From: Spirochaetales bacterium
GTDB lineage: Bacteria; Spirochaetota; Leptospiria; Leptospirales; Leptonemataceae
Length of the DNA: 64,000 nt
Assembly (NCBI GenBank): GCA_015075425.1
Contig: JABTUL010000002.1
Location: forward strand, 744,001 to 808,000
Direction: 5' to 3'
Shown: positions 26,034 through 30,353 of the stretch, one piece after another
Numbering within the stretch: position 1 is the first letter of the stretch
Layout: every line of letters starts with the position of its first letter
Notes under the pieces: model-generated
Database searches by the model: none
Told to the model about the DNA's origin: nothing
What the model saw: only the letters and a program-made list of their open reading frames with translations
Translations under genes and position numbers: made by a program

Positions 26034-28061
26034 TCAATAGCGTCTGAGCTGGTAGATCACATTATCGAGCACTTTTTCCATCGGCGCATCCTGCACAATC
26101 ACCGCATGAATCGCCGCCATGATCGGGTATTTGTCCGGCTGTATGGTAATGAGGGAAGGCAATGCGCGAACGCCAAAAATCCCCGGCGATTTTTTGCCAG
26201 GATCGGCAATGCCGAGGGCAAAATCACGACCGTAGCGACGGTCGCGTGCATCCTGACTGAAGCAACTGTGCATGAAATCTGTCAGGCCCGAAAGGCCCAT
26301 GAAAGTGGTTTCCTGGCCACCGAGGGCCACACCCAGGTCCGTCATCTCCCGGAACATGCGATTGGAAATGTGAAAGAGCGAGTTATCAGAATTGCCCCCC
26401 AGACTCTTCTCGTAGTATCCGTCAAGCAGACCAATACCCAGGGCGTAGATGTTCTTCAGGGCCCCGCCCAGCTGAACGCCGCGAACATCGGATGGGTTGA
26501 GGGCGGGGCGAGTGAAGGCGTAATTTGTACTGAAGAGCATACAGATGTGATTGATGGGATCGGCATTCATTCCGGCTACTTCCCAACCGGTAACTTTGCG
26601 CTCCATGACCTGGTCCGGATAATTGGCCCCGGCCATGGCCATCAGCCTCTCCTCCTGCAGTTCGTAATCATGGGACAGGTCGTCCAGGATGAGTCCCCTT
26701 TCCGAACCGGTGAATCCCTTGATGATGTTGATAATTGGCCCATTGGATTTCTGTAAATACAACTTGAGCCGGGAATAGTACTGATCAAGTTCCCACGGGC
26801 GAACCGCTTGAACAAAAATAGTGCCTGTTTCCAGTTCAACGGGATTTGCCGTATAGCTGATGTTGGGTGGCAATTTGAAAATGGGAAAATGATCCAGATC
26901 CGCGCGACGGGCGTTGAAGAGTTCCGCTTTTTCCGCATCCGGTACGTAAATTTTAATGTCAATTTTCTTATTGGCCAGCACCGCAGCCATGGCCGTCCCG
27001 TAAGGGCTGTGTCCTATGATGTAGGCACGCTCCACCGGGCTTTCCGGAACGCGGATGAGAATGTTACTCTGCGCGGATTCTGCCAGGTACAGATTGCGAT
27101 AGGTCCCATGGCGATGCCGATGCAGATTCTGACCGATCAGCAATGCAAGAGCATCAATGACATACTGCTTTTTGTCAACGTTGGGTGGCATGTCGATTCG
27201 TTCGACAGTCTGCGGTAGTTCCTGCATTTGTCGGGAGGACAGGCTGCCCACAAGAACCGGTTTACCGATGCTCAGCTTTCCATGAGCAGCATTAAACAAA
27301 AAGGAAGAAGTGGGCAGTACGTTTTCCGTTCCATCAAGAGAAATGGGAATGATAATTTTATTGGCTACATAGTGATACACGGCATCGACAAAGTTGACCA
27401 GCTTTCCTGTACGCGAACGGGTCCCTTCCGGGAAAACGGCTATCACCTTACCATCCTTCTGCAAAGATTGAGCCTGGCGGAAAGAACGCATATTGATTCG
27501 AGTCATCACGTCGGCCATCGCCGGATTGTCTGACATATCCCGCTGCGAGCAAACCAGAAGGGTATCAAACATGTAGAGGCCAAGGCGGGTAAAGTCCGGT
27601 TCAAAAGCCAGTCGTCCGGCAATGAAAACAAGACTCTCCGCCAGGCGCCGGGCATCGCCGCCCTCACGTTGCAGCAAATAGTAGATGGCCGGCGCATCCA
27701 GGTGACTCAGGTGATTGGACACAAGGGCCAGGGGAAATTTTCCCAGAAGCGGAATGATTTGATTGAGATTTTCCTGACCCTCCACCTGGAAATTTTTCAT
27801 GATCGGTGAAAGAAACTGGTTCATGAAATTGCGCAAATCGGGATCGTGGCGGGTATAAACGCCTACATCTTCCAGGCGAGTTTCATCACGAAACGTATCC
27901 ATCACTGCGGGCATGGGTGTTGCTGCAGAGAGTTTCAGAAAGTTCGTCAGCAAATCACGGGCTTCCTCTTCTTTAAGACCATACTGCATGAATCCATGGA
28001 TGTTTTTAAAAAATTCGCGCTGCCAGGGTGCATGGGTTGTGGACGTTTCTTTTTCTTTCAT
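26034..28061 (-). CDS. Fused acyltransferase (PlsC) and glycerol-3-phosphate dehydrogenase (GpsA)
   Basis: A 675 aa fusion joining two steps of phospholipid synthesis. The N-terminal half is a PlsC/PlsB-type acyltransferase: NHLSHLD at 116-122 (HX4D) and FPEGTRSR at 210-217. The second half from about residue 340 is an NAD(P)-dependent glycerol-3-phosphate dehydrogenase: nucleotide loop AYIIGHSPYGTAMA, Lys in IIKGF (about 448) and catalytic Lys in QLGGALKNIYALGIG (about 536), then GQETTFMGLSGLTDF. It should make sn-glycerol-3-phosphate from DHAP and acylate it or its lyso form. ATG 28061 is chosen; a GTG at 28109 is the alternative, and neither has a good RBS. Confidence 0.88.
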   Translation of the reverse strand: MKEKETSTTHAPWQREFFKNIHGFMQYGLKEEEARDLLTNFLKLSAATPMPAVMDTFRDETRLEDVGVYTRHDPDLRNFMNQFLSPIMKNFQVEGQENLNQIIPLLGKFPLALVSNHLSHLDAPAIYYLLQREGGDARRLAESLVFIAGRLAFEPDFTRLGLYMFDTLLVCSQRDMSDNPAMADVMTRINMRSFRQAQSLQKDGKVIAVFPEGTRSRTGKLVNFVDAVYHYVANKIIIPISLDGTENVLPTSSFLFNAAHGKLSIGKPVLVGSLSSRQMQELPQTVERIDMPPNVDKKQYVIDALALLIGQNLHRHRHGTYRNLYLAESAQSNILIRVPESPVERAYIIGHSPYGTAMAAVLANKKIDIKIYVPDAEKAELFNARRADLDHFPIFKLPPNISYTANPVELETGTIFVQAVRPWELDQYYSRLKLYLQKSNGPIINIIKGFTGSERGLILDDLSHDYELQEERLMAMAGANYPDQVMERKVTGWEVAGMNADPINHICMLFSTNYAFTRPALNPSDVRGVQLGGALKNIYALGIGLLDGYYEKSLGGNSDNSLFHISNRMFREMTDLGVALGGQETTFMGLSGLTDFMHSCFSQDARDRRYGRDFALGIADPGKKSPGIFGVRALPSLITIQPDKYPIMAAIHAVIVQDAPMEKVLDNVIYQLRRY

Positions 28062-28158
28062 AGACAAGGACTGCCGGCCCGGCCGGCGGCAGGCAACCTT
28101 TTTCCGCACAAAAATGAGTTGTGTCGGGGAAAAATGCTACAATCCTGATCCCGGCTCC

Positions 28159-29184
28159 ATGAAGGCAAGCTTCCAGCAATTCAAAGAACGGATCGCCGAC
28201 TGGGCCGAGCGCATCCATCGTCGGGGCCGGCAGCGCCTGACCATAATGATCATCCCGCACACGGAAAAGCGGGTCCTCAATCTTCATGTGAACGTGTACA
28301 CACTGAGCGCTGCGGGGATTTTCCTTCTGGCCGTGTTGTTTTTTTCCGTGTTTCGTCTGGCGGACAAGACCGGGGATGATATCCAGTACTATGATATGGG
28401 TCTGACCAACAGTCAATTCAGCGCACAGTCCAACCGCATGGCCGATGAACTCATTCCCCTTCATGAATTGATCTCTAAGTACGTAAGCACCATCGAGCAG
28501 CTCTACATCAACCTGGATGGTCCGCAAACAGAGGAACTGACCGGAGGCGCTGTCTCCGCAGAAGCCATCGAAACCCTGCGCAGCAAAGTACTGGAGTGCA
28601 AGGATCGCAAAGATGGCTGCTCCCAGGACGACACCGATGAAATTTTGCGCCAGGTTTTGTATCTGGCCAAGCAGGACAACCTCAGGCTGGAACGTTCCAT
28701 TGCTCTATCCGAGCGTATCATTGAAGAACTGAAAAGCCCGGAAAAACAAAACATACTCAAACAGACTCCGGGGCTCTGGCCGGCGCGCGGCTATCTTCTG
28801 CACCCTTATGGCAATCAGATCGATACCTTACAGGGCAGGGAACTTTTCAAACAGGGCATAGAAATTGGAGTGCTGCCGGGGACGGAAGTGGTTGCCGCCG
28901 CGCCCGGCCTGGTCACCCAGTTAGGCTACAATGACACCTACGGACTGCATATGTGGGTCAGTCATCGCTATGGTTTCAAGACCTTCTACGCCCATCTGGA
29001 CCGCACAAGGGTGCAGCTGCGAGATTTAGTGGACAGGGGTCAGGTCATCGCATATACAGGCAGCACGGGCAACGTACGCACTCCCATGCTTTATTATGAA
29101 ATCCATATCGGAACGATTCCCTACAATCCCCATGCCTTCATCAATCACCTGCAAGATCAATGGCTAATCCAAAAGACACTTTAA
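28159..29184 (+). CDS. Membrane-anchored M23 (LytM) protein, zinc ligands lost
   Basis: A 341 aa protein: cytoplasmic start, one TM helix (about 47-66), a helical coiled-coil region (about 85-200), and an M23 domain (about 225-330). The fold is clear (FKQGIEIGVLPGTEVVAAAPG; KTFYAHLDRTRVQLRDLVDRGQVIAYTGSTG), but the first zinc His is Gln, the Asp is Glu, and the HxH at the end reads PMLYYEIH. So it should not cut peptidoglycan; like EnvC or NlpD it may activate or hold another enzyme. Its 3' end overlaps the bactofilin gene by 25 bp. ATG 28159 begins the conserved part; a longer frame runs back antisense to the fused acyltransferase and is rejected. Confidence 0.87.
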   Translation: MKASFQQFKERIADWAERIHRRGRQRLTIMIIPHTEKRVLNLHVNVYTLSAAGIFLLAVLFFSVFRLADKTGDDIQYYDMGLTNSQFSAQSNRMADELIPLHELISKYVSTIEQLYINLDGPQTEELTGGAVSAEAIETLRSKVLECKDRKDGCSQDDTDEILRQVLYLAKQDNLRLERSIALSERIIEELKSPEKQNILKQTPGLWPARGYLLHPYGNQIDTLQGRELFKQGIEIGVLPGTEVVAAAPGLVTQLGYNDTYGLHMWVSHRYGFKTFYAHLDRTRVQLRDLVDRGQVIAYTGSTGNVRTPMLYYEIHIGTIPYNPHAFINHLQDQWLIQKTL

Positions 29185-29498
29185 TTCTCAACAGTTTGAT
29201 CGGCGAAGGCTCGGAATTTCGGGGCGAATTCAAAGTCAAGGATCTGATCCGTATTGATGGTTTCTTCAAGGGTAACATCCTCACAGAAGGTAAAGTGCTG
29301 ATCGGGCAGACAGGCGTGGTGGAAACCGATATTCGCGCGGGCACTGTCGTTGTTGGCGGTGAAGTACGCGGTTCCATCTTTGCTGAAAATCGGGTTACTC
29401 TCCTGTCCACCTGTCAATTGTTTGGGGACATTGTGACCAGACGTCTCGTTGTTGAAGAAGGCGTGGTGTTCGAAGGCAGATGCACCATCAATCGCTGA
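29160..29498 (+). CDS. Bactofilin
   Basis: A 112 aa bactofilin (CcmA family): short N-terminal tail, then the right-handed beta-helix core with repeated hydrophobic beta turns (FRGEFKVKDLIRIDGFFKGNI.., GVVETDIRAGTVVVGGEVRG) and a short C-terminal tail. Bactofilins polymerise without nucleotide at the membrane and place cell-wall enzymes; in Helicobacter and Leptospira members set helical shape. The overlap with an M23 gene is the classic arrangement. Confidence 0.94.
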   Translation: MANPKDTLILNSLIGEGSEFRGEFKVKDLIRIDGFFKGNILTEGKVLIGQTGVVETDIRAGTVVVGGEVRGSIFAENRVTLLSTCQLFGDIVTRRLVVEEGVVFEGRCTINR

Positions 29499-29510
29499 AA
29501 GGAGAACTCC

Positions 29511-30353
29511 GTGGACGAATACTATGAACCGGTAGAAAATGCCGATCAGCTAACCCCGCATACTGTCATCCGTAGAAGTGGCAGCCGCCATCAACAGGGT
29601 CGCTTCATCAAGCATCACGCAGACGGAACAGGCCTTGTGGTGATGAATGTTTTCGATCCGGTGAACCACGAATTTGTTGCGGAAGCCGGAGTGATCAAAC
29701 CGGATCCGGCCGATCAAATCTTCCGGCTAAGAAAACACTTCAGTGAAGACCCCGTCTCAGAACAGGCGCGGCAAATTCTGCGCAAATGGATTTTATTTCG
29801 CGAACATATAGAACTACAACAGGAATTCCTCGAGACCTTAGAATGCAGCTATGGCCCGGAACAAATTCTGAGCTGGCACCGGCAGGAAACTCTGCAGGCT
29901 CTGTTTGTCCCGTTGCAGCAAAAATACAAAATAGGAAAATTCAAAGAAAAAATTGACTGGGATAAAGTTCGTGCAGAAGAATTCGCCAAGCATATCAACG
30001 CTCTGTATGAAGGCAAACACATCACCTATGTTGCTTTTATCCCGACCGACACAAACCACCAGCCCATGTTCTATTCTTATGGAACCAAACCGCATCTGGA
30101 AACCGTAAAACAACTGGAACGCGAGGCCTTTGCCTTCAAGCCAACGCATGGAGGTCATTTGAAAATCATCAGCGCCAGAGGTGAACCCAAGAAATTTGTG
30201 GTAGATGCTGGTTCCAATGATCTGGGCCGCGGCATCTACACATCCCTGGCCACCGCAGAAATGGTGGCTCACGCCCTGCAAATGTTCTTCCCGGACTATG
30301 AGTTTGTACCGCTGGCTGGACGTCAGGCCTACGGTGTGCAGCAAAGCTATTGA
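29511..30353 (+). CDS. Hypothetical cytoplasmic protein, 280 aa
   Basis: No family recognised. The GTG start has a strong GAAAGGAG site 6 bases upstream and lies 12 bp after the bactofilin gene, so it is the third gene of the M23-bactofilin operon. It has no signal or TM helix. The N-terminal 70 residues (VIRRSGSRHQQGRFIKHHADGTG..) are small and beta-like; the middle is helical and charged; the C-terminal 110 residues (ITYVAFIPTDTNHQPMFYSYG ...) look like an alpha/beta domain. It may be a cytoplasmic partner of the bactofilin scaffold, from position only. Confidence 0.75.
   Translation: MDEYYEPVENADQLTPHTVIRRSGSRHQQGRFIKHHADGTGLVVMNVFDPVNHEFVAEAGVIKPDPADQIFRLRKHFSEDPVSEQARQILRKWILFREHIELQQEFLETLECSYGPEQILSWHRQETLQALFVPLQQKYKIGKFKEKIDWDKVRAEEFAKHINALYEGKHITYVAFIPTDTNHQPMFYSYGTKPHLETVKQLEREAFAFKPTHGGHLKIISARGEPKKFVVDAGSNDLGRGIYTSLATAEMVAHALQMFFPDYEFVPLAGRQAYGVQQSY

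Follow-up and report, generated by a model that had tools for sequence, protein, structure and literature searches.

Three open reading frames follow one another on the plus strand of the window, i.e., the whole stretch of 64,000 nt of DNA that was analysed: an M23/LytM gene (28159..29184, 341 aa), a bactofilin gene (29160..29498, 112 aa) and an open reading frame of 280 aa (29511..30353). The start codon of the bactofilin gene lies within the M23 gene, which it overlaps by 25 bp, and a gap of 12 bp separates the bactofilin gene from the third reading frame. The overlap, the gap and the length of 280 aa are as described in a first-pass annotation of this DNA. The M23 reading frame matches Peptidase_M23 in Pfam (2.5e-22), and the second reading frame is a bactofilin, with the Bactofilin domain PF04519 at residues 12-108 (3e-28). 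The two genes are also adjacent in relatives. Upstream and divergent, on the minus strand (26034-28109), is a gene for an acyltransferase fused to an NAD glycerol-3-phosphate dehydrogenase, which is kept as the divergent upstream neighbour of the M23-bactofilin pair in most of the window's family. The genome that carries the window has 14 M23 matches and 5 bactofilins. It also contains a second bactofilin-M23 pair, in reversed order and with an intact M23 site, at L044:7645-9185 (C1, about 2134650-2136184).

The M23 protein begins with a conserved N-terminal stretch, LTIMIIPHTEKRVLNLHVNV (codons 26-45, plus strand 28234..28293), that is modelled as a beta hairpin with strands at residues 26-31 and 40-45. 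It is followed by a predicted membrane helix at about residues 46-66 (28294..28356, plus strand), where the hydropathy maximum starts at residue 46 and the modelled helix spans 46-78, and by a predicted periplasmic helical or coiled-coil region at residues 84-202 (28408..28764, plus strand). The LytM domain, residues 205-329 (28771..29145, plus strand), has an intact fold according to Pfam, the model and the fold search. The AlphaFold2 model places hairpin, membrane helix, helical coiled-coil region and LytM fold in this order, with a mean pLDDT of 82, values that exceed 90 for most of the LytM domain and a pTM of 0.56. A Foldseek search with this model found EnvC, DipM, Csd1 and Csd2 among the matches, the TM score to the EnvC LytM domain being 0.90 by target length. 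Among solved structures the sequence-profile search ranks 5j1l_A highest (3.4e-39), a chain of the Csd1-Csd2 complex that is taken to be Csd1 because its motifs are intact (PDB codes: PMC5053510). Other high sequence-profile matches are EnvC (2.1e-14), the DipM LytM domain (6.7e-13) and Csd2.

A close parallel in layout is LmdC-BacA of Hyphomonas neptunium and Rhodospirillum rubrum. LmdC has a cytoplasmic beta hairpin, a membrane helix, a coiled coil and a C-terminal M23 domain, and its gene overlap is 17 bp (PMC10945521), compared with 25 bp in the window. The LmdC hairpin and residues 26-45 of the window protein are alike in position and modelled fold. The window protein thus has the architecture of the bactofilin-coupled LmdC type: a hairpin, one membrane helix and a coiled coil, all predicted, a C-terminal LytM domain and an adjacent bactofilin gene. 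In H. neptunium the cytoplasmic N-terminus of LmdC binds bactofilin, and R. rubrum LmdC is no longer recruited once its hairpin is altered (PMC10945521). However, LmdC has the full set of zinc ligands and is active as a DD-endopeptidase, whereas the window protein has none of these ligands.

Alignment with Csd1 (5j1l_A) and other M23 proteins was used to locate the five key M23 residues, which are, in order, a zinc His, the zinc Asp, two catalytic His and a zinc His. In place of H, D, H, H, H the window protein displays K231 (28849..28851), E235 (28861..28863), H279 (28993..28995), M310 and Y312, all on the plus strand. The last two belong to the tripeptide M310-L-Y312 (29086..29094), which stands at the HxH position of the catalytic His and the third zinc His. 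H279, within YAHL, is therefore the sole survivor of the five. Pairwise and multiple alignments agree on these columns, which rules out a chance misalignment. The window protein has the LytM fold of an active M23 peptidase of the LmdC type, but not its HxxxD and HxH zinc and catalytic residues. The first-pass annotation had placed Gln at the first zinc His position; the residue there is actually Lys, and Gln is the next residue. It was right that the zinc Asp has become Glu and that HxH is lost, the site now reading MLY, and also that the M23 fold is kept while the metal site is not, as the Pfam match and the modelled fold set against the replaced residues indicate.

An orthologue of the bactofilin-linked M23 gene is present in 45/48 genomes of the class, i.e., 20 of the window's family, 8 of a second family and 17 from four more families, no named Leptospira species being part of this set. 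All 45 are degenerate, with 0-3 of the 5 key residues each. The first zinc His is absent from every one of them, being replaced by Asn in the other families and by Lys, Arg, Gln, Val or Leu in the window's family. At the class loci with a degenerate M23 the bactofilin gene is directly downstream. In contrast, five of five residues are present in each of 53 distinct M23 genes linked to bactofilin in other spirochaetes (mostly Treponema), and bactofilin-linked M23 is also intact in five further outgroup lineages. The gene order M23-bactofilin-DUF327 is common to Treponema, where M23 is intact, and to a sister family, where it is degenerate, and many Treponema loci, as well as one locus of the sister family, have a TatD gene upstream. 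DUF327 is absent from the loci of the window's family, including the region downstream in the window. The degenerate M23 gene occupies the same locus as the intact gene of Treponema and is not a new insertion. Sequencing error or a pseudogene is ruled out by the 45 degenerate genomes, together with strong purifying selection. No report of a degenerate bactofilin-linked M23 in spirochaetes was found in the open literature searched.

In the tree the dead copies cluster as a single group, supported at 100/99. The group is still recovered at 100/96 after removal of 25 catalytic-motif columns, so that grouping merely by shared loss can be dismissed. It should be noted that a partly decayed outside lineage (L041, L108), which has kept H, D and H, has lost HxH and has no bactofilin neighbour, falls among the dead copies; thus to speak of a strictly single loss goes beyond the tree. 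In that other spirochaete lineage the M23 genes L041, L108, L109 and L244 are unlinked and hairpin-bearing, with H, D, H kept and HxH changed to ICFYQ, which represents a second, partial decay.

The class also has an unlinked paralogue, without a bactofilin neighbour, that is represented in the genome of the window by G000:C1:1658863-1659921. All 5 key residues are present in each of the 30 class loci first retrieved and also in those read later. Nearly all class genomes that have the dead copy carry this paralogue, which resembles the dead copy over its whole length. The N-terminal motif K-G-x-E-R-L-T-I-M-x-I-P-H is common to dead and intact copies, and is weaker in several sister-family genomes. 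Within-genus pairs of the dead M23 domain show pN of 0.013-0.135 and pS of 0.53-0.75, with pN far below pS in every pair. Between the two copies only pN was compared, because pS is near saturation, and pN of the dead domain is the lower in 9/9 within-genus pairs. The dead domain is thus under stronger constraint than the intact unlinked paralogue. Constraint of this kind on a dead enzyme makes a binding function most likely.

A degenerate M23 protein in a bactofilin system is a known theme, represented by Csd1-Csd2-CcmA of Helicobacter pylori; new here is that it extends across a class. Csd2 is, like the window protein, a degenerate LytM protein in a bactofilin system, the bactofilin being CcmA. 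It is a metal-free LytM protein that lacks the first His of both motifs. Together with active Csd1 it makes up a 1:1 heterodimer, in which the two associate through helices that flank the LytM domain (PMC5053510). Loss of csd1, csd2, csd7 or ccmA has an identical shape outcome (PMC9507126). The two systems differ in that more residues are lost in the window protein than in Csd2, and in that the loss spans the whole class. Moreover, the H. pylori genes for Csd2 (HP1544) and active Csd1 (HP1543) are adjacent, whereas in the class only the dead copy of the two lies beside bactofilin, the active one being encoded at a separate locus.

The class bactofilin locus is best read as one in which the enzyme has been replaced by a Csd2-like pseudopeptidase, the window protein having both a degenerate LytM domain and a coupled bactofilin gene. 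We consider it fairly probable that the bactofilin-coupled peptidase lost its activity in the ancestor of the Leptospira class but persisted as a scaffold bound to bactofilin, with catalysis passing to the unlinked paralogue. In the window, the M23-bactofilin pair would on balance be a scaffold with a membrane-spanning Csd2-like pseudopeptidase, through which bactofilin is linked to an intact M23 encoded elsewhere. The M23 protein would bind the bactofilin polymer by its cytoplasmic beta hairpin, and the single membrane helix and the coiled coil would carry the dead LytM domain to the periplasm. There it would not cut peptidoglycan, but may attach to the wall itself or to one of its active enzymes, and so place or control hydrolysis along the bactofilin track. 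Its likeliest partner, by analogy with the Csd1-Csd2 heterodimer, would be the unlinked intact paralogue. This model is suggested by the 45 of 45 dead class orthologues set against the 53 of 53 intact linked M23 genes elsewhere, by the constraint on the dead domain together with the conserved M23-bactofilin gene order, and by the hairpin motif in both copies, since bactofilin recruitment depends on this hairpin in LmdC (PMC10945521). It also draws on the nearness of Csd1 and Csd2 by sequence, as metal-free Csd2 pairs with active Csd1 (PMC5053510). The pair may also have a role in cell shape.

Two points speak against the paralogue as partner: it is unlinked, and the reduced genome G010, in which the dead gene is present, has an intact anchored M23 only of a different type. 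A pairing like that of Csd1 and Csd2 is further called into question by the helices that flank the LytM domain and form that dimer (PMC5053510), as these may be missing from the window protein. The genome of the window encodes two further intact membrane-anchored M23 proteins, L006 and L008 (C1:1128464 and C4:200426), whose N-terminal tails are of a different kind (SGISILVME and TGLSVLVLL), and one of these could be the partner in place of the intact paralogue.

The other readings differ in what the LytM domain would do. That the window protein retains enzymatic activity, through another metal site or by a mechanism without metal, is highly improbable: H279 is indeed present in most members of its family and two of the three zinc ligands are retained in sister families, but in the window protein itself none of the three zinc ligands remains and one catalytic His has been substituted as well. 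The substitutions also vary within the family (ligand 1 is K, R, Q, V or L, and ligand 2 is E, A, T, Q or W), which is unlike a new site. Dead LytM domains that regulate other wall enzymes are found in EnvC, NlpD and DipM, which are not known to be coupled to bactofilin. An activator of the EnvC/NlpD type would open the active site of an amidase of the AmiA/B/C type, and EnvC, with its like layout of coiled coil and dead LytM domain, is among the closest structures both by sequence (2.1e-14) and by fold. The targets of EnvC and NlpD are Amidase_3 enzymes, which activators of the EnvC type require. However, Amidase_3 was not detected in the genome of the window, with a control search positive in 8/14 genomes, and no full-length Amidase_3 was found in the 22 genomes of the family, where three members give weak partial matches; 25/26 other class genomes have it at full length. 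In this family the dead domain is nevertheless retained and constrained. The absence of full-length Amidase_3 makes amidase activation unlikely in the family. To our knowledge, moreover, EnvC has neither a bactofilin coupling nor a cytoplasmic hairpin, and the activator reading as a whole is quite unlikely. The first-pass annotation had proposed a scaffold or activator, with hydrolase activity from elsewhere. This stands as the best reading, with a good candidate for the hydrolase in the intact paralogue at G000:C1:1658863-1659921, which bears the hairpin motif; activation of an amidase is unlikely in this family.

The two remaining alternatives concern what the domain would bind. It may act as a hub in the manner of DipM, binding several autolysins, such as lytic transglycosylases and endopeptidases, with no fixed partner. 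We know of no case in which DipM is encoded together with bactofilin, and we regard a hub as unlikely, even though the DipM LytM domain is close in sequence (6.7e-13) and fold, and DipM is reported to bind several autolysins (PMC10336132). Alternatively, the dead domain may be a purely structural anchor that needs no enzyme as partner and, by binding peptidoglycan, fastens the bactofilin filament to the wall. This would fit the strong constraint on the whole dead domain and the fact that Csd2 retains its substrate groove without a metal (PMC5053510). The intact paralogue with its hairpin motif in nearly all class genomes instead points to a paired arrangement, and the anchor is quite improbable.

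The pseudopeptidase reading bears on other spirochaetes. Models of bactofilin function take the linked M23 protein as the wall cutter at the bactofilin site, as has been suggested for Leptospira biflexa (PMC10945521). There, as in the window, a bactofilin gene adjoins an M23 gene: loss of the bactofilin LbbD alters helicity, and the neighbouring LEPBI_I1430 is described as a putative peptidase, hydrolysis by which might account for the helix phenotype (PMC10945521). The class-wide loss of the site and the stronger constraint on the dead copy suggest that in this lineage bactofilin needs the binding of its neighbour, not the cutting. If the linked peptidase did die at the base of the class, the M23 protein beside LbbD in Leptospira would be a pseudoenzyme. 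Borrelia burgdorferi has, like the window, an M23 gene, a bactofilin gene and a third gene in this order (BB0246-BbbG-BB0244); the likeness is one of gene order, and BB0246 is called an endopeptidase (PMC13393453).

The third gene of the window is found in 15 of the 48 class genomes, all of the window's family, and adjoins the M23-bactofilin pair in 4 of these 15, with other neighbours elsewhere. It was therefore rejected as a core partner, and of the single module of three genes proposed in the first-pass annotation only the M23-bactofilin pair is conserved. Searches of Pfam, of PDB sequences and of folds gave nothing reliable for the 280 aa protein, and the absence of a Pfam match agrees with its earlier description as a protein of unknown family. 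Its model has a pLDDT of 70 and a pTM of 0.47. In the window the third gene may be cotranscribed with the pair.
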